From positions 1 through 26,206 of IMG/VR virus record IMGVR_UViG_3300008954_000239: 26,206 nt of DNA. One strand, written 5' to 3'. The stretch comes from a virus. The notes under the pieces are model-generated. The model had not been told where the DNA came from. It did no database searches and worked only from the letters and a program-made list of their open reading frames with translations. This document shows positions 8,954-25,900 of this stretch, one piece after another. Each line of letters begins with the position of its first letter. Position 1 is the stretch's first letter. The position numbers were made by a program, and so were the translations under genes.

Positions 8954-8992
8954 AGTACCTTTTTTCCTTTTATTTTAACTACATATATGTAT

Positions 8993-9427
8993 ATGGCATA
9001 TAAAGGTAAATATAAACCAAAGAACCCACAAAAGTATATAGGTGACCCAACGAAAATAATCTATAGAAGTTTATGGGAAAGAAAATTTATGGTTTTCTGT
9101 GATACCCAAGATAATATCATGGAATGGGGTTCGGAAGAAGTAGTTGTACCATATGTATCACCTGTGGATAAAAGAATGCATCGATATTTTGTTGATTTTT
9201 TGGTTAAAGTAAAAAGAAAAAATGGAATAAAAGAAACCCTACTAATAGAAATAAAACCAAAAAAACAATGTTGCGCTCCAGTTAAAAAGAAAAGAATTAC
9301 GAAATCATATATCTGTGATGTAAAGAACTGGAGTGTAAATAGTGCAAAATGGAAGGCGGCAGAAGAATTTGCGGATAACCGAGGATGGAAATTTAAAGTA
9401 TTAACCGAAGATACTTTATTGAGGTAG
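8993..9427 (+). CDS. gp4: Head completion protein gp4
   Basis: T4 gp4 family, about 144 residues. The start MAYKGKYKPKNPQKYIGDP followed by IIYRSLWERKFMVFCD, EWGSEEVVVPY and KRMHRYFVDFLVKV is the family core, resembling a restriction-endonuclease-like fold (E-E...DF-x-E-K: WERKFM, DFLVKV, IEIKPK). gp4 closes the head after packaging and, with gp50/gp65 synonyms in T4, prepares it for tail joining. I chose the second ATG (8993) because T4-like gp4 proteins begin Met-Ala-x-Lys; the in-frame ATG at 8987 would add only Met-Tyr. No good Shine-Dalgarno is visible before either start. It is the first gene of the plus-strand tail operon. Confidence 0.92.
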   Translation: MAYKGKYKPKNPQKYIGDPTKIIYRSLWERKFMVFCDTQDNIMEWGSEEVVVPYVSPVDKRMHRYFVDFLVKVKRKNGIKETLLIEIKPKKQCCAPVKKKRITKSYICDVKNWSVNSAKWKAAEEFADNRGWKFKVLTEDTLLR

Positions 9428-11164: not shown

Positions 11165-11878
11165 ATGCCATTACCAACAATTGAAGTACCAAAGTACAAA
11201 TTAAAAATACCATCTTCGGGAAAGATGGTTACATATCGTCCATTTCTAGTAAAAGAAGAAAAGATACTTCTAACAGCACTAGAAACTTCCACAGATGACG
11301 GGGCACTTACAGAGGCGCTTGTTAATCTAATTAATAGTTGTATTATAACAAAAGATATAAAGATTGAATCACTTCCACCTTTTGATTTAGAATACATCTT
11401 TCTTCAACTTAGAGCAAAATCTGTCGGAGAAACTGTAGAAGTAGAAATAAAATGTAAAAATGAAGATTGTTCTCTGAGTAAATTTCCATGGGAAATTGAT
11501 ATAACAAAAATGGAAATTAAAAAGAATAAAGAACATACAAATAAAATAGAACTATCGGATGAACTTGGTATTATTATGAAATATCCTACAACAGAAAATA
11601 GTTATGGTTTAGATATTAAAAATACTGAAGATATTTTTGGTGTGATTGCTAGTTGTGTAGATTCAATCTATACAAATGAAGAAGTATTTTCGAATAAAGA
11701 CCACACAAAAGAAGAAATTGAATCGTTTATAGAACAACTATCCCCAGAATACTTTAAAAAAATAGTTGGTTTTTTCGAAACTATGCCAAGCATGAATAAT
11801 GATGTTGAATGCACTTGTCCAAAATGTGGGGAAACAACTACTGTAGGATTTAGGGGAATAGACGATTTTTTTATCTAA
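11165..11878 (+). CDS. gp26: gp26-type baseplate/tail-assembly protein (T4_baseplate family)
   Basis: A 237-residue member of the T4 gp26 family. It begins MPLPTIEVPKYKLKIPSSGK and continues VTYRPFLVKEEKILLTALE and LPPFDLEYIFLQLRAKSVGE, a highly typical opening. Cysteines C97/C102 and C218/C221 (with C216) are spaced like a zinc ribbon. A GGAGAAAT ribosome site precedes the ATG. In T4, gp26 is needed for hub assembly. Here the gene stands just before the tape measure, the position of the gpG-type tail chaperone in lambda-like phages. Its last codons are GAT TTT TTT ATC TAA, providing a T-TTT-TTT slip site; see the frameshift feature, which would extend it to about 301 residues. Confidence 0.92.
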   Translation: MPLPTIEVPKYKLKIPSSGKMVTYRPFLVKEEKILLTALETSTDDGALTEALVNLINSCIITKDIKIESLPPFDLEYIFLQLRAKSVGETVEVEIKCKNEDCSLSKFPWEIDITKMEIKKNKEHTNKIELSDELGIIMKYPTTENSYGLDIKNTEDIFGVIASCVDSIYTNEEVFSNKDHTKEEIESFIEQLSPEYFKKIVGFFETMPSMNNDVECTCPKCGETTTVGFRGIDDFFI

Positions 11879-11959
11879 GTCTCTGTCATACTAATCTGAT
11901 GACTTATTATCAGGTTAATTTTCAAATGATGCATCATCATAAATATAGTTTGACAGAGA
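11866..11959 (+). promoter_or_regulatory. Candidate programmed -1 ribosomal frameshift site with three-way-junction stimulator
   Basis: The gp26 frame runs GAT TTT TTT ATC TAA, so T TTT TTT at 11866-11872 is a correctly phased -1 slippery heptamer two codons before the stop. Seven nucleotides later a perfect 9-bp stem starts (TCTCTGTCA at 11880-11888 with TGACAGAGA at 11951-11959). It encloses an 8-bp hairpin (11893-11900 with 11909-11916, one U-G pair) and a 6-bp hairpin (ATGATG 11926-11931 with CATCAT 11935-11940). Slippage would continue into a frame open to 12069. Spacing and structure fit known -1 signals. That it works is inference. Confidence 0.7.
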
Positions 11960-12069
11960 TAGAAAATATGATACCGTGGGAAAGACAGATATATCTTTCA
12001 TTATTAAAAAATTATATACAGGAAGAAAATAAAAATATAGAATCTAAAATGAATAAGGGACTAGGATAG
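11899..12069 (+). CDS. Small tail-assembly ORF, probably the frameshift extension of gp26
   Basis: A 56-codon frame beginning at ATG 11899 and ending TAG 12067-12069, two bases before the tape-measure start. It encodes a helical peptide with YSLTEIENMIPWERQIYLSL, a pattern I recall in short proteins encoded before tape measures in marine T4-like phages and similar in style to the C-terminal part of tail chaperones (gpT-like). No Shine-Dalgarno precedes the ATG, and that ATG lies inside the arm of a predicted hairpin. The frame is also open upstream to 11854 and is in the -1 phase relative to gp26. I therefore think it is mainly made as a gp26-fusion tail of about 65 residues; independent translation is the alternative. 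Confidence 0.7.
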   Translation: MTYYQVNFQMMHHHKYSLTEIENMIPWERQIYLSLLKNYIQEENKNIESKMNKGLG

Positions 12070-15534: not shown

Positions 15535-18384
15535 ATGACAGATATCTCACAATCAACCGATGGAGTTGCATTAAATGCATTAGGTTCTAGTGGTGGTGCT
15601 TTAGTAGCAACCGACATTGTTTCTATTAACGGTAACGCAGCCTCACATGTACAATACATGAAAATGGGTTGGGGTAGTACTGGAGATGAATATTATGAAG
15701 TAGGTACTGATAATAACCCAACCGCAAGACCACTTCCTGTTATGCTTCGTCATACAGATGGTACTGCAATAGGTGGAGCAAATAATGTATTAGATGTTAA
15801 GATTGCATCACAGGGTTCACTTGCTATATCCGCAGATATTCTGCATACGCTTGGTGCATTAACTATTGAAGGTACTGCTGGAATGCATCCTCTAGAAGTA
15901 GAAGGTTCAAGTGGAGCGGCACCAGTTTGGATTGCTGCCACTGGTGGTACTTTCAGTGCAACGAATCCAAACTATACATTACCAACAATGTTGTTTGGTG
16001 CTTCTCTTGGAGGAGGAGGATACTCGGCAGCACCAGTTGGTATTACTGGTAACCGACTAATGGTAAATCATCCAGATGCATTAACAGTAATCTCAGATGG
16101 TAGTGGAACATTTGTTCAATCAACTGGTGGATTCACTTTATCTAGATTGAGTGCATTAAACACTACACCATCTGTGTTGTTCGGTGTAACACATGGAGGT
16201 GGTATTGCACCACTCGGCGTAACAGGACGAGGAGCATCAGGACATAGATTGCTTGTTGATTTAGACGGTGAAACAGTCACTGTATCTCAAACTCTAACGG
16301 GTTCTGCGGGTGTCGGTGGAACAAAAACTATGCCATCTTTGATTTATGGAATGACTGGTGCTAGCGCACAAGCAGTTAATGTAACTGGTGGTAGAATGTA
16401 TGTTTCTGTTTTGGGTGAAACACTAAAAATCGATAATGCATCAAATGCAGGACTTTATGTAAGAGCAACTGGTGGTTCTACTGTAGACCAGACATCTCCA
16501 CTAGGAATGCTTCCTACAGTTTTATATGGACATACAGCGGGTGGTGGACTTGAATCAATAGCCGTGTCTGGTGGTTTACTTGCAGTTGATATTCGTCAAG
16601 CATGTATAACTCTTGATGTAACACTTGCAACAACACAAAAAGTTCTAAACGCAACTGCTGATGCAGGAAACATCCACCATAGGTATCTAATGATATCTGG
16701 TGTAACAAATAACGGACATAAACCAGAAGAATCGCATCCAGTATTTGTAAGTGGTAAAGATGATGGTTCAACATACTCATACCCAATCGGTATCACCACA
16801 TCAATGGTTGGTGCATCTGGTGGCGCTTGGCCACTACATGTAACTGCTGATAATATCAAAGTTACTGCATTTACTCCAACTGTAACCGTGTCTGCAACAA
16901 AATTGGATACTAGAGGATTGACTGCGAAAGCGGCAGGACAAGATTCTATTATTGCTCATGGTGAAACTGCAATGGGTTCTTGGAACTGGATGAAGGTCAC
17001 TGGTGGGTTCTGTGGAGCAACATCGGAAGTTAGTAGTTTTGCACCAACTATGCTCTTTGGTAATACCGCAGGTGGTGGAATTTCACCTGTTACAGTAACT
17101 GGAGGTAACATAGCCGCAGGAGGTGGTGTAACATTTAGTTCACTACTGGTGGGTATTGGACACCCTGTTGATATAAACAGTTCAAAAGCAAGTCCACTTT
17201 ATATGGTTGTTACTGGTGGTATGAGTGCAGAAGCAGGTGCTAATGGATGGATGCCTGTTGAAAATGCAATGCCTTCATTATTACTAGGTATTAGTGGACC
17301 ATCTGCCGCACCTGTAGGAATGTCTGCTGATATGCTCAAAGTATATCTTGATGATGGAATTTCCGCAGGTAAAGATAGTATAGTTGCTTATGGTGGTGGA
17401 GGTCTTCTAGGTGTATGCGGTTCACCATCATATATTACTGCATATAATACTTTACCGACTCTCTTACACGGTTTCTCTGCCTCTGCTGGTGGTGGTAGTG
17501 CCGCACCAATAGGAATGTCTGGTGATGCAATGAATGTAAACCTCGTCAATGCAGGTATTACAGTAGATGTTTCAGTGGGGACACATGTTGAAGTAAGTAA
17601 TGACAATGGTCCTGCTCTCTTCATTCAAGGTGCAACAAATGGACACGGTGCTTGTGCAGGTGTAATCGCACCTGTAGTTCCAGTGTATGTTGCAGGTGGT
17701 ACTGCTCACGACCAACCAGTTAAAATTGAAGGTAAGGATGGAATGACTCCTGTTGAGGTGAGAGGCAGCACTGCACCTGGTTACTACCCAGTAGGAATCA
17801 CAAGTGATGCAAATTGGGCAATAGCATCTGATGGTTCACTTGTTGGTGCAGGAAGTATTGGTAATAGTCTTGATAACTTATACACCTTTATACAAAATGG
17901 TTTAAATAATAAGAGTGGATTCTCAGCAGTAGTACCCGATAAACATTTTGCAACCGATGAACGCCTTGTTGCTATGCAACCAGATGGTGGTGCAAGTAAA
18001 ACTAAAATTGGAAACGAATTCAATCAAAATGAACATAATATACATCTAGCAAATATATCTTCTGCATACGGTGCAACCGCAACTGGAAGTATGAATGTAA
18101 ACATAATTAGTTTCCCACAACCTAGTAGTTTTGTTCAGGGACAGAAAAGGGCTACAAGTACTGCGGCGGTTCTTCACGATGTCGCTACAGGACTGTCAAG
18201 TGGTGTCAAAATTAAAGGACATCAAAATAATTCCGATTATGTTTATGTTGGTGTTGAAGGTGTTGACCACGAAGATGGATACCCATTAGGACCTTCCGAG
18301 GAAATATTCTTAGAAATAGACCAGATACAATCAGTATACATATATGCATCACCGAACGGAACTGCGTGTTATATTGGTTCGTAA
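15535..18384 (+). CDS. Large repeat-containing virion protein
   Basis: A 949-residue beta-rich virion protein of unknown exact role. It contains at least seven copies of a degenerate unit with the consensus LPT-(M/L)-L-(F/Y)-G-x-GGG-x-APVG-(I/M/V)-(T/S)-G, near residues 148 (TLPTMLFGASLGGGG), 211 (TPSVLFGVTHGGG), 265 (MPSLIYGMTG), 325 (LPTVLYGHTAGGG), 503 (APTMLFGNTAGGG), 578 (MPSLLLGISG) and 638 (LPTLLHGFSA). Units alternate with short strand-rich stretches. The last ~90 residues (TSTAAVLHDVATGLSSG ... SEEIFLEIDQIQSVYIYAS) look like a compact beta-sandwich end. Gly, Ser, Thr and Ala dominate. TTAGGAG precedes ATG. A fibre, whisker or head decoration is plausible; the linked 1075-residue gene is probably a structural partner. 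Confidence 0.8.
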   Translation: MTDISQSTDGVALNALGSSGGALVATDIVSINGNAASHVQYMKMGWGSTGDEYYEVGTDNNPTARPLPVMLRHTDGTAIGGANNVLDVKIASQGSLAISADILHTLGALTIEGTAGMHPLEVEGSSGAAPVWIAATGGTFSATNPNYTLPTMLFGASLGGGGYSAAPVGITGNRLMVNHPDALTVISDGSGTFVQSTGGFTLSRLSALNTTPSVLFGVTHGGGIAPLGVTGRGASGHRLLVDLDGETVTVSQTLTGSAGVGGTKTMPSLIYGMTGASAQAVNVTGGRMYVSVLGETLKIDNASNAGLYVRATGGSTVDQTSPLGMLPTVLYGHTAGGGLESIAVSGGLLAVDIRQACITLDVTLATTQKVLNATADAGNIHHRYLMISGVTNNGHKPEESHPVFVSGKDDGSTYSYPIGITTSMVGASGGAWPLHVTADNIKVTAFTPTVTVSATKLDTRGLTAKAAGQDSIIAHGETAMGSWNWMKVTGGFCGATSEVSSFAPTMLFGNTAGGGISPVTVTGGNIAAGGGVTFSSLLVGIGHPVDINSSKASPLYMVVTGGMSAEAGANGWMPVENAMPSLLLGISGPSAAPVGMSADMLKVYLDDGISAGKDSIVAYGGGGLLGVCGSPSYITAYNTLPTLLHGFSASAGGGSAAPIGMSGDAMNVNLVNAGITVDVSVGTHVEVSNDNGPALFIQGATNGHGACAGVIAPVVPVYVAGGTAHDQPVKIEGKDGMTPVEVRGSTAPGYYPVGITSDANWAIASDGSLVGAGSIGNSLDNLYTFIQNGLNNKSGFSAVVPDKHFATDERLVAMQPDGGASKTKIGNEFNQNEHNIHLANISSAYGATATGSMNVNIISFPQPSSFVQGQKRATSTAAVLHDVATGLSSGVKIKGHQNNSDYVYVGVEGVDHEDGYPLGPSEEIFLEIDQIQSVYIYASPNGTACYIGS

Positions 18385-18411: not shown

Positions 18412-21400
18412 GTGGCACGAGAAGATTATTCGAATAGAACTAGAGAAACATTACATCGTAATTGGTTATTTGATGATACAAATGTCACAGTATCTGGACA
18501 ATATGAACAAGTAAAAGATACATTCATATACAATCAGAGTTGGTGGACTAAAAACTCTAATTGTCATAACCACTATTATAAATTACAAACAGGGGTATCT
18601 TCTGGACACTCGCATGCATTTCCTAAAGATAGAGAGGAACTTGTTCTTGGTCTAATGAACAGATTTAGACAAAGTATGGGAGGTGAACACAACCACGGAG
18701 TTAAACCAGGACCAGAGAATCACCCTCCAAGTCCAAACAATAATCCTATTTCTGTATGGAGTGCATGGTCTGGCGCACAAGGAGGTGCTTTTGATGGTAG
18801 GGGTTATGGGAACTACCCCCATAATGACACAGTATATGACCCTTGGCATGGTTCATATTATGCATACGATGGAGATACCCCTGATGACCGTTGCGATAAT
18901 GCTGGGGGACATGATTCTGGTTCTGATGATTTTTGGAAAATTAATGGAGATGCTTTTAGGAGTAGCGAGGGAGAAGAAAATTATGAACCATCAATAGATT
19001 TCCGTCAAATTCAATTATGGGACCCATGTCAATACATTTATAATGATAGGTTTAGAGATGGGTTAGGACTTAGTGAATCAGAACACGAAGTCCACGCAGG
19101 TCGTTCTGACCCATCCAATGGAACTGACTGGTGTGTGGACGGTGGACAAGGACAAGCACATACGGTTTGTAATGATAATGGTGGAGTAAATTGTTATGGT
19201 GATTTTACCGTACAAGATGTTGGGTTTAATGCGGGTGGACGGTCTGGTGATTGTCCTGGCGCAAACTGGATGAGAAATCAACCACCTTCACTTGAAAGAA
19301 CACCCTTTAGACCAATACTTCTATGTGACTTGCGTACAGATAATAATCCCGCAGTTCCAGAAGGTGGATTCATTACAAGTTGTAAATTAATTCTTACTGT
19401 GAGTAAACAATCTATTGCTTGGCCGAGAAAAGGATTTACTGCTGAAGTATTTAATCTTGTTGCGGGTGCAAATGAAAATGCAAACTGGTATAGTCCTATT
19501 GGAAGACCAGATTCACTACTGAACCACGATAGTGCAGGACATACTCTTGGTCATTGGTATACCACAACATTAAGAGAAGTGAATCAAGTACCTTGGAATC
19601 TTGGTCAACATTGGCTTCCAGACCCAATACATAAATCCATATTTCCAAAAGAAACAAAGACTTATGCTTGGCAACCAGATGCGGATTGGGATGAGGATGA
19701 GTATGATACGACTGATGGTGGTCCATCTCCAAGACATCCAAATGTCCTTTGGAAATTTAATCGTCCATTTAATGAATCGTGTTATTTAGTAGGAAGATTT
19801 GATACCCATGACCCCGATGGTAGCCCCCCTGTCTACTCTTTACCATCATATTACGGAGAATGGGAACACGGTGGATTACATAGTGAACAACTTTTAGTTG
19901 GTCCTGCATATGACGGAGAACAATCTTGGGAAGGCCTTAACTCTGAAAATCCATTAACTAGCGGTTTACCTCCTTATAAATTATGGGAGCCGATTCCTTG
20001 GTGGGTTGAATGTGGATATGCTTGTGGTAACTGTAGCCATAAACCACCTATAGGTAATACAGATGGAACATCACCCAACAGTATTGGGGAAGACCGCGCA
20101 GTTGGTTGCTCTGCTGGAAATTGGCATGCAAGAGCAAGTGAAGTAGAAGGACTAACTGGTTGTGGTGGTGCAGTAGATGTTTCTTTTGGTGGATTTACAC
20201 ATGATGTAGGTTCACCCGGAGGAGGGCAACCAATACCACATTATGCATACGATGGAGAAAACCTTAATACTGATACATCCAATTCATTTGGACCATCGAC
20301 ACACACATATGTTCCAGAATGGGCGCCCATCTCAAGTCCAAATTATAAAGAATTTAATATTCCTAAATTTACAACTACTGGATTTAGTGGAGGTAATGAA
20401 AACTTATTTAATGTTGAAGGTCCTCACGGGACTGGTTCGACTGGACAATATGATGGAAGAGGAATAACCTTTGAAATAGAACTTGATGACTTTGCAAGAC
20501 ATGCTATAGCAAACAAGGAACAAAAATTAGACCTACTTATAAAGGGTGAATATAAAGGCAGAGCAGAAGGGTCTACAGTAGATGCAGTATATGAATCTGC
20601 ATCAGCATTATGGATAAAAACAAACGAAATAGGTTGTCAAGAATGTGTTGATGAATTATATCCTAAAGCAAATTCCAGTAATGCCCCAGTTCAAGGTTTT
20701 GAAGGAATAGATAAACTATGGAAAACAGATGCGGCGCAAATTGCAACCAATTTCTTTTCTGTAGATAGTCCTGCTCCAAATATGATTATTCCAATACATT
20801 TCAGAGGAAAAGGAAGTACAGTAGATTGGGAATCAGGAAATGTAGGTGGCATGTCATTTCATCTACAAACAACAGAAAATCCAAACAAAGAAGAATATAT
20901 AAAAATGCCTAAAGGATTTATGAATGAAGGACAATTGGATTCTTTTACAAGATTTAATATGGTCTTTGGAAAGATGGCAAGTACAGACTCATTCGAAATT
21001 CTTGATTCTGAATCATATAGTTTCTTCGATGATACAGATGGAACATATACACCATATAAAGTTGAAATGACAAACCATTATACAAATGTATATGTCACAG
21101 GAGATAATAGACTATTTCCAAGTGTGCCAACCACATCAAGACCAGAAACTATAAACGACCAATCAGCAAGATTTATAGGAACACATAAGATATCTTTAGA
21201 GAATGAATATTACATAGACACATATACGGACGGAGCATATATGCCAATGTTCGAAAATTTTTATGACCAAGTAGAATCCACTACTACACTAAATCCATCA
21301 TCAACTGCATATCCAGAATTTTATTCACAGGATGCAATGGTTGAAGGTGGTGGAGGTATTACTGGTGGTGGAAGAGATATCATTGAAGTAAACATTCAAG

Positions 21401-21639
21401 GAGATACTACTCATACAAACAACGGTACATACACTATTCAATCAGTATATTATATGAATATAGAACATAATATAAATATTGAAAGATTAAGAGTAAATGA
21501 AAAAGTCACTGACCAATCAGAGCAACAATGTTTAGTTAGAAGAATAAATCACAGACCAAGATTTGAAGTAAGTTATAGGTCTAGACGGCAATATGACCGT
21601 CCCGGTGACCCCGCTGGAGGAGTACCCCACGGTGATTGA
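18412..21639 (+). CDS. Giant Cys/His/Trp-rich virion protein
   Basis: A 1075-residue protein starting at GTG (18412), chosen because AGGAAGG lies 6 bases before it and no nearer ATG continues the frame. I do not recognise its family. The N-terminal ~100 residues contain three HxH motifs (H52-N-H54, H66-S-H68, H93-N-H95); HxH motifs in T4 gp37 tips bind iron. Residues ~150-640 hold many cysteines in short spacings (CGYACGNCSHKP; DWCVDGG; CNDNGGVNC) plus many Trp, Asp and Gly, suggesting metal- or disulfide-stabilised modules. A short echo, YYAYDGD and HYAYDGE, occurs near ~151 and ~610. The C-terminal ~350 residues look more regular and beta-rich. A structural, possibly host-contact or metal-binding role is inferred. 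Confidence 0.78.
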   Translation: MAREDYSNRTRETLHRNWLFDDTNVTVSGQYEQVKDTFIYNQSWWTKNSNCHNHYYKLQTGVSSGHSHAFPKDREELVLGLMNRFRQSMGGEHNHGVKPGPENHPPSPNNNPISVWSAWSGAQGGAFDGRGYGNYPHNDTVYDPWHGSYYAYDGDTPDDRCDNAGGHDSGSDDFWKINGDAFRSSEGEENYEPSIDFRQIQLWDPCQYIYNDRFRDGLGLSESEHEVHAGRSDPSNGTDWCVDGGQGQAHTVCNDNGGVNCYGDFTVQDVGFNAGGRSGDCPGANWMRNQPPSLERTPFRPILLCDLRTDNNPAVPEGGFITSCKLILTVSKQSIAWPRKGFTAEVFNLVAGANENANWYSPIGRPDSLLNHDSAGHTLGHWYTTTLREVNQVPWNLGQHWLPDPIHKSIFPKETKTYAWQPDADWDEDEYDTTDGGPSPRHPNVLWKFNRPFNESCYLVGRFDTHDPDGSPPVYSLPSYYGEWEHGGLHSEQLLVGPAYDGEQSWEGLNSENPLTSGLPPYKLWEPIPWWVECGYACGNCSHKPPIGNTDGTSPNSIGEDRAVGCSAGNWHARASEVEGLTGCGGAVDVSFGGFTHDVGSPGGGQPIPHYAYDGENLNTDTSNSFGPSTHTYVPEWAPISSPNYKEFNIPKFTTTGFSGGNENLFNVEGPHGTGSTGQYDGRGITFEIELDDFARHAIANKEQKLDLLIKGEYKGRAEGSTVDAVYESASALWIKTNEIGCQECVDELYPKANSSNAPVQGFEGIDKLWKTDAAQIATNFFSVDSPAPNMIIPIHFRGKGSTVDWESGNVGGMSFHLQTTENPNKEEYIKMPKGFMNEGQLDSFTRFNMVFGKMASTDSFEILDSESYSFFDDTDGTYTPYKVEMTNHYTNVYVTGDNRLFPSVPTTSRPETINDQSARFIGTHKISLENEYYIDTYTDGAYMPMFENFYDQVESTTTLNPSSTAYPEFYSQDAMVEGGGGITGGGRDIIEVNIQGDTTHTNNGTYTIQSVYYMNIEHNINIERLRVNEKVTDQSEQQCLVRRINHRPRFEVSYRSRRQYDRPGDPAGGVPHGD

Positions 21640-22158: not shown

Positions 22159-22160
22159 AA

Positions 22161-22234
22161 CACACCTGGCAGGACTCGAACCTGCGACCATCGGATTAGA
22201 AATCCGATACTCTATCCAACTGAGTTACAGGTGC
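22161..22234 (-). tRNA. tRNA-Arg (anticodon UCU)
   Basis: On the minus strand a complete cloverleaf can be folded. The acceptor stem is GCACCTG / CAGGTGT (closing G-U), the D arm AACTCAGTTGGATAGAGT, the anticodon stem TCGGA / TCCGA with loop TTTCTAA (anticodon TCT, reading AGA/AGG), and the T arm GCAGG-TTCGAGT-CCTGC. The discriminator is G and CCA is not encoded, so host enzymes must add it. AGA is a frequent Arg codon in this AT-rich phage (many AGA codons in the genes here), so the tRNA would help late translation in a host that uses AGA less. Confidence 0.95.
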
Positions 22235-22241
22235 ATAGAAG

Positions 22242-24197: not shown

Positions 24198-24225
24198 ATT
24201 ATAGTTTATATTAAACATATGTCAA
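24198..24225 (-). promoter_or_regulatory. Consensus sigma70 promoter for the HTH gene
   Basis: Minus-strand TTGACA (24225-24220), 16 nt, TATAAT (24203-24198): 12 of 12 consensus bases. The -35 box overlaps the TGA stop of the upstream gene. Expected start near 24191. Confidence 0.88.
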
Positions 24226-24464
24226 TTCTTTTTTTGTACGAATTCGTAAATTTTTTCTGCTTCAACTAAAATTTCTTCGTGTGTTGGAAACTTTGGTTGA
24301 ATGGCTACTGGCGACTTTGCAGTAACTGTTGCACCTTCTAATTCTTGTTCTCGTTTCCAATCTTCAAAATCTTGCCACAACGAATGGCTCTGATAAAACT
24401 TATCCATCAATAATTGTTTTGCTTCTTGATAAATGTTGTATCGTAGTTCGTAAGGGTTTGCCAT
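24222..24464 (-). CDS. Conserved phage protein of unknown function
   Basis: An 80-residue protein beginning MANPYELRYNIYQEAKQLLM and continuing FYQSHSLWQDFEDWKREQEL, ending PTHEEILVEAEKIYEFVQKK. I recall small proteins with the MxNPYELR start as frequent in marine T4-like phages; no function is known to me. It is helical, with a Pro/Ala-rich hinge near residue 50. The C-terminal EEILVEAEKIYEFV is amphipathic and could dimerise. AGGAG precedes ATG. It is the first gene after the promoter at 24532-24559, with a ~60-nt leader carrying an inverted repeat. Confidence 0.82.
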   Translation of the reverse strand: MANPYELRYNIYQEAKQLLMDKFYQSHSLWQDFEDWKREQELEGATVTAKSPVAIQPKFPTHEEILVEAEKIYEFVQKKN

Positions 24465-25409: not shown

Positions 25410-25623
25410 CTGCTCCAGTTCCCCAATCAAATGAATCTTGATTATTATTATTTTCTTCTATCTTTTTCTTTGTGTTTTCTATACACTCTATTATGTAGTT
25501 TAATTCGTCTGTTGTATAATAGTCACATCTTTCTATAGAATCAAAATTATATAAAAATGCAACAGTTTCATTTTCGTTGTAAATAGATTTACCTATTTCA
25601 ATTCTTGGTTTTCTTTCATCCAT
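25369..25623 (-). CDS. Small acidic phage protein
   Basis: An 84-residue acidic protein (IEIGKSIYNENETVAFLYNF, then CDYYTTDELNYIIECIENTK) with an Asn/Glu/Asp-rich tail. No family recognised. Its ATG overlaps the stop of the preceding gene (ATGGATGA, 8 bp) with GGGAG upstream, and its own tail overlaps the next gene, giving a compact overlapping trio typical of phage early regions. Confidence 0.68.
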   Translation of the reverse strand: MDERKPRIEIGKSIYNENETVAFLYNFDSIERCDYYTTDELNYIIECIENTKKKIEENNNNQDSFDWGTGADDTRQKEKEGLVE

Positions 25624-25900
25624 TTAAAAGACTCCCTGTTTCAAAACCTTGTACACTACTCACACGAAAAGAACGCCAAGCCTGTGCATCCATATCCCAT
25701 ACAGGAATGACTTCAGTATTTTTTGCTTCTTCTGTTAGTTGTATTTCTTTTTGAATAAATCCAGCACCATTTCCTTCTGCAAGAATATTAGGCTTCAATG
25801 TACAATTCATAATTCGTGTAGAGCCATCTACTTTTTCAAAAGTAACTTTGCATATTCCTTTGTGTAGTGATTCTACCATAGATTCTTTTGTTTGGTTCAT
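25616..25900 (-). CDS. WYL_2-like (DUF2693) Sm/SH3-fold protein
   Basis: A 94-residue protein resembling the phage family DUF2693/WYL_2, described as an Sm-like SH3 beta barrel. Key elements are CKVTFEKVDGSTRIMNCTLK in the N-terminal half and VIPVWDMDAQAWRSFRVSSV in the C-terminal half; the W-D-x-(D/E)-x-x-x-WRSFR element is the family hallmark. Function is not established; a regulatory or nucleic-acid role is commonly supposed. AAGGAGAT precedes ATG, and an extended -10 promoter lies just upstream. With the two LSm-like proteins it makes three small SH3-type barrels in 3.5 kb. Confidence 0.85.
   Translation of the reverse strand: MNQTKESMVESLHKGICKVTFEKVDGSTRIMNCTLKPNILAEGNGAGFIQKEIQLTEEAKNTEVIPVWDMDAQAWRSFRVSSVQGFETGSLLNG

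Follow-up and report, generated by a model that had tools for sequence, protein, structure and literature searches.

A putative programmed −1 ribosomal frameshift joining gp26 and gp51 into a long form of the tail assembly chaperone in a T4-like phage

The tail assembly chaperones (TACs) of phage lambda (gpG/gpGT) and other siphophages are produced with a −1 slip that takes place shortly before TAC-N ends, ahead of the tape measure gene. In E. coli dnaX, the signal consists of a Shine-Dalgarno (SD)-like element, an X XXY YYZ heptamer and a downstream hairpin. For T4-like phages, the abstract of a study by Vladimirov, Gautam and Davidson in Virology (2022; 566:9–15) reportedly describes conserved frameshifting in several groups, the T4 pair being formed by genes 26 and 51. 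In passages citing Vladimirov et al. 2022, polyT sequences are named as known −1 signals in the TAC-N genes of T4-like phages (PMC12846349), and some T4-like phages are stated to have two genes, one short and one long, in place of frameshifting (PMC10885494). A TAC frameshift with a GTTTTT motif has been described for the Vandenendeviridae and Andersonviridae (PMC12846349).

The window analysed here, by which the whole stretch of DNA is meant, comprised 26,206 bases of an IMG/VR virus record with a G+C content of 36%. Comparison with PHROG and Pfam profiles identified a T4-like tail and head module composed of a tail tube cap, a gp4-like head closure protein, a gp2-like DNA end protector, a gp19-like tail tube protein and gp26, followed by gp32. 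The gp26 homologue was preceded by the gp19-family tail tube gene and followed by a 676-aa open reading frame (ORF), which gave no PHROG or Pfam profile match and was assigned as a probable tape measure by its position only. The head closure homologue (8987–9427) also matched the TnsA-like endonuclease N-terminal domain PF08722 (E=1.3e-22), two large ORFs (15535–18384 and 18412–21639; 949 and 1075 aa) were without PHROG match, and a tRNA-Arg(TCT) was located at 22160–22235 on the minus strand. Other near-stop heptamers in the window (24222–24464 and 25616–25900) were dropped, as their −1 extensions were only short; at 24222–24464 (minus strand), A AAA AAG lies two codons ahead of a small-ORF stop, with a −1 frame that closes within a few codons, and is probably meaningless.

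The gp26 gene ends with the codons GAT (11864–11866), TTT, TTT, ATC and TAA, the final T of GAT and the two Phe codons forming an in-phase T TTT TTT heptamer a single codon (ATC) before the stop (Table 1), which bears out the slippery site proposed in a preliminary description of the locus. After the slip site, the −1 frame is open for 65 codons, which together with 236 gp26 residues give a 301-aa fusion beside the 237-aa gp26; frame length and product sizes are those initially given (65 codons; 237 and about 301 residues), whereas the gap between the −1 stop (12067–12069) and the next ATG (12071) is a single base (12070) and not the 2 bp first reported. A further in-phase T6C is found within gp26 at codon 203; because of this second site, the heptamer alone is no proof, and the evidence lies in its position and conservation.

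Table 1. Coordinates of features at the gp26–gp51 junction, numbered along the window.
Feature	Position	Strand	Basis
gp26 homologue, short tail assembly chaperone (TAC-N), 237 aa	11165–11878	+	PF12322, phrog_150, AlphaFold2 model
SD-like AGGGGA, candidate dnaX-type upstream stimulator	11852–11857 (ends 8 nt upstream of heptamer)	+	relatives
Slippery heptamer T TTT TTT, in phase	11866–11872	+	sequence; T6N at the equivalent place in 142/143 junctions
−1 frame extension (gp51, TAC-C), 65 codons	11872–12069	+	phrog_634 and phrog_150 profiles; protein conserved from the slip site on
gp26 stop TAA, one codon after heptamer	11876–11878	+	3 nt after heptamer in 137/142 relatives
Predicted RNA three-way junction (outer stem 11879–11888/11951–11960; hairpins 11894–11915 and 11926–11940)	11879–11960	+	MFE fold
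Small-ORF ATG from the mechanical listing; not accepted as the true start	11899–11901	+	no SD; within predicted stem; conserved residues upstream; mostly Glu in relatives
Probable tape measure protein, 676 aa	12071–14101	+	position only

Two scans of IMG/VR yielded 160 loci with 144 distinct junctions, including the window; apart from the in-frame fusion L043, the two parts lay in separate frames in all of them (143). Of these 143, 142 combined an in-phase T6N (TTTTTTC in 133, TTTTTTT in 8 and TTTTTTA in 1) with a gp51 in the −1 frame; the phages being related, the counts do not represent independent events. The exception (L102) has a gp26 gene that is apparently broken upstream. Where the gp26 stop was not 3 nt past the heptamer (five junctions), it was found 24 nt past it, with the slip site unchanged. 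Divergence was large, the nearest relatives being at most 49% identical to the window, and no close relatives were found by a search through the tape measure. The Phe-Phe pair at the slip site was encoded by TTT TTC in 71 of 74 cases and by TTT TTT in the other three, compared with TTT TTC in only 6 of 79 cases elsewhere in the same genes, and the preceding codon ended with T in all 74 (50 expected). The same kind of heptamer in the same phase was detected in Emdodecavirus, Busanvirus, Menderavirus, Vibrio D483, Ceceduovirus, an Acinetobacter phage and Kyanoviridae. Isolates with the same arrangement were Emdodecavirus phiM19, Acidovorax ACP17, Stenotrophomonas Moby, Vibrio D483 and Aeromonas P19; it was also seen in P-TIM68, S-SRM01, MC09 and the single-cell virus AG-345-D19, and in Acinetobacter SH-Ab 15599, whose T7-ATC end is identical to that of the window. 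In L043 (3001–3891), the only in-frame gp26–gp51 fusion among the 144 junctions, the TTTTTTCGG of close relatives is replaced by TTTTTGG, an apparent loss of 2 nt by which the two frames become a continuous one of 297 aa.

Judged from the sequence, these phages very probably use a programmed −1 ribosomal frameshift that yields two forms of the tail assembly chaperone. This reading is based on the heptamer, its phase, the conserved coding of the −1 frame and the family relations, all of them present in the sequence, from which we infer slippage and its efficiency, an effect of stimulators and the chaperone function. The majority of ribosomes would terminate at the gp26 stop and release gp26 (TAC-N, 237 aa), while a minority, holding Phe-tRNA in both the P and the A site on T TTT TTT, would slip back by one base and read 65 further codons through gp51 (TAC-C), producing a TAC-NC of 301 aa. 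Slipping is probably promoted by the AGGGGA about 9 nt upstream and by downstream RNA structure. If lambda gpG/gpGT are taken as the model, the role of the gp26 part would be to coat the tape measure and that of the gp51 end, present in the long form, to recruit subunits of the tail tube.

The upstream candidate stimulator recurs in the family. An SD-like 4-mer was located 8–16 nt ahead of the heptamer in 137 of 142 distinct junctions, with relatives carrying GAGGG about 9 nt upstream where the window has AGGGGA. Where the codon here encodes Glu, it was GAG in 117 of 128 cases, whereas GAG made up 42% of the Glu codons preceding Gly in other parts of these loci.

Downstream of the slip site, the window arms TCTCTGTCA (11880–11888) and TGACAGAGA (11951–11959) are perfectly complementary over 9 bp, starting 7 nt past the T run, which agrees with the spacer and stem originally described. 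A perfect 9-bp stem with a partner no more than 75 nt away begins at only about 0.1% of window positions. The MFE structure was a three-way junction with inner hairpins of 9 bp and 6 bp (−29.5 kcal/mol, z −4.33; 0 of 200 shuffles as good); the junction and the 6-bp hairpin had been correctly anticipated, while the first inner hairpin, initially given as 8 bp, is one pair longer. It is possible, though less likely than not, that ribosomes slip at the heptamer but that this three-way junction is incidental, stimulation coming from the SD-like sequence ahead of the slip site and from the stop codon close by; such an arrangement is a variant of the frameshift reading, and its likelihood does not exclude that of the latter. 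Consistent with an incidental junction, the 6-bp hairpin is largely a consequence of the codons for MMHHH, and the 9-bp stem and three-way junction of the preliminary description are not conserved across the family: among 43 relatives without the local hairpin, in-register pairing of the long-range stem was no better than that of shuffled partners (4.67 vs 4.87), and in the majority of relatives another hairpin forms locally. The opposite is suggested by the stability of the window fold, with z ranging from −4.3 to −6.2, by the finding that L067 (9/9) and L018 (8/9) can form the pairs of the same outer stem with different bases, and by the presence of some downstream structure in most relatives (mean z −2.5 against shuffles; 50-nt windows, n=142). 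A role of the three-way junction in the window is therefore regarded as plausible, without conservation across the family.

The hairpin found in most relatives comprises 10 bp and begins about 5 nt past the heptamer. Covariation was counted by pairs on this named hairpin in 134 sequences; 80% of the cells were paired, changes on both sides were recorded in 75 cells (26 ± 4 after shuffling), and the column pair 21–35 was U-A in 69, A-U in 14 and G-C in 12 sequences. RNAalifold returned no consensus structure over all 134 sequences, a result probably due to a mixture of classes. In a subgroup with GTATTGCAMGAG or similar past the slip site (L020, L024, L033, L035, L038, L039, L046, L058, L061, L066, L068 and L070), the slip site is kept and the common 10-bp hairpin is missing. 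We tentatively propose, with slightly less than even confidence, that the cyanophage-type gp26/gp51 junction bears a three-part signal in which the slip site T TTT TTC is preceded at about 9 nt by the SD-like GAGGG and followed at about 5 nt by a 10-bp hairpin, the latter kept by compensatory changes although it codes for conserved protein, and that single lineages such as that of the window have swapped this hairpin for a different, larger fold, a changing stimulator thus accompanying a fixed slip site.

Protein conservation in the −1 frame reaches back to the slip site and covers residues ahead of the ATG in the window, with LSxxHxxL lying between slip site and ATG as part of the motif LSxxHxxLxxYY; the third codon positions of this frame are the most variable ones, including in the 38 of 142 junctions that contain no ATG, GTG or TTG within the first ten −1 codons and still keep the same protein there. 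At the position of ATG 11899, relatives mostly have Glu. As initially observed, this ATG lies within a predicted stem and lacks an SD, which is present before both neighbouring genes; in the family, too, an SD-like 4-mer preceded the first gp51 ATG in 0 of 130 cases, compared with 32 of 131 gp26 starts, a weak control given how often clear SDs are missing in this group. In the slippery run, the phase and the absent SD, points on which the preliminary description had said that relatives could refute it, the relatives bear it out. Taken jointly, the conserved −1 protein upstream of the ATG and the absent SDs favour a fusion over separate initiation. It is accordingly quite improbable that gp51 is made solely as a separate small protein by termination-reinitiation (coupled translation), with no fusion and with the T run as a by-product of the Phe-Phe peptide. 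This alternative would account for the ATG that occurs within ten −1 codons, shortly after the gp26 stop, in 96 of 142 relatives, for the TAATG or TGATG overlaps in L082, L085–L088 and L090, and for the annotation of gp51 as its own gene in databases, but it leaves the choice of Phe-Phe codons and the preceding T unexplained, and in S-CAM1 and DSL-LC03 the gp51 sequence is conserved even though gp51 is unannotated. Judging by the position of these start codons, a separate gp51 could be made in addition to the fusion where an ATG closely follows the stop.

Some junctions depart from the common pattern. Rhizobium phage AF3 (L086) combines T TTT TTG with a TGATG overlap, and Vibrio phage K414 (L085) has a TAATG overlap and no T6 run, which suggests shifts between frameshifting and coupled reinitiation. 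In the Ackermannviridae loci L174, L180 and L090, a gp51-like tail is found in the −1 frame and the T6 run is missing (GAG ATT TTC ATT TAA); L090 has a TAATG overlap, and L174 and L180 are without a nearby ATG, GTG or TTG. A sequencing or assembly error, in which a miscounted T splits one continuous gp26–gp51 frame, would fit a break at a homopolymer and the continuous frame of L043 but can practically be dismissed, as the same frame relation is repeated in 142 of 143 metagenome junctions and in isolate genomes, with runs that are mostly T6 followed by C and not long homopolymers.

The upstream protein matched PF12322 (the gp26/T4_baseplate family; E=1.2e-62, 211.9 bits against a curated cut-off of 24.5) and the first 232 positions of phrog_150 (E=8e-66). 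The 56-aa small ORF matched positions 66–118 of the 121 positions of phrog_634 (baseplate hub assembly catalyst, gp51; E=1.4e-23) as well as the C-terminal end of the gp26 profile phrog_150 (positions 243–278). Since both proteins match parts of phrog_150, the PHROG gp26 family already includes joined proteins. An AlphaFold2 model of gp26, built from an alignment of IMG/VR loci only, reached a pLDDT of 88.7, while a model of the L043 fusion was of low confidence from residue 239 on (TAC-C part). The top PDB entries obtained with VIA for the gp26 model were the prophage protein 3fgx (Z 7.9), the HK97 TAC 2ob9 (Z 7.7), the prophage protein YqbN 3klu (Z 7.1) and 5ir0 (Z 5.0), after which values dropped to 2.9; Foldseek ranked 2ob9 first with a weak E of 0.56. 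A sequence search of the PDB with the gp26 profile gave nothing credible, and no sequence similarity to solved chaperones was detected. The model supports a relationship of the predicted gp26 fold to known TAC-N over residues 1–90 only, with moderate Z and a modest match. The presence of the HK97 chaperone among the top matches lends weight to the proposal that gp26 is the analogue of gpG; the assignment of the 56-codon frame as the T part is supported, but its membership in the known gp51 family, and the earlier publication of such an arrangement, had gone unrecognised in the preliminary description. These results support the view that gp26 and gp51 are tail assembly chaperones rather than parts of the baseplate hub.

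The gp51 protein of cyanophages has been described as 'truncated', with only about 20% of the length of T4 gp51 and without its first ~200 residues (Sullivan et al., PMC3037559). It is most simply understood as the tail of a gp26–gp51 fusion, the frameshift being the source from which the ~200 residues would come. On this basis, a core gene of an abundant aquatic phage group is re-annotated.

Judging by the passages that cite Vladimirov et al. 2022 and by what its abstract reportedly states, a T4-like chaperone frameshift of this kind is already published, and the window, which shares both gene families and the place before the probable tape measure, adds another member. The Vandenendeviridae and Andersonviridae likewise have a poly-T −1 site where TAC-N ends and a −1 frame that is open family-wide (PMC12846349), but they are other phage families with another motif. 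The arrangement of the signal is that of E. coli dnaX, with T TTT TTY in place of A AAA AAG and in a different gene, the stimulatory elements of the window being candidates only. With lambda, other siphophages and HK97, the locus shares the position of the slip, and the fold of the HK97 TAC (2ob9) is related to the gp26 model over residues 1–87; it differs in belonging to a contractile-tailed phage, in about 150 further gp26 residues and in its T6-run heptamer. In T4 itself, PF12322 covers gp26 (208 aa) as well as the first 201 of the 249 residues of gp51, and gp51 matches the full profile of gp26 plus extension, its C-terminus corresponding to the extension; in T4 and AbTZA1, gene 25 comes after gp26 instead. 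T4 gp51 is thus a gp26 domain with this tail, and T4 encodes as two genes what phages of the window type make by slippage. The short and long forms of T4 come from two separate, divergently oriented genes without frameshift, whereas those of the window would derive from one frameshifted message, a clean case in which the T4 lineage encodes separately what other lineages obtain by frameshifting.
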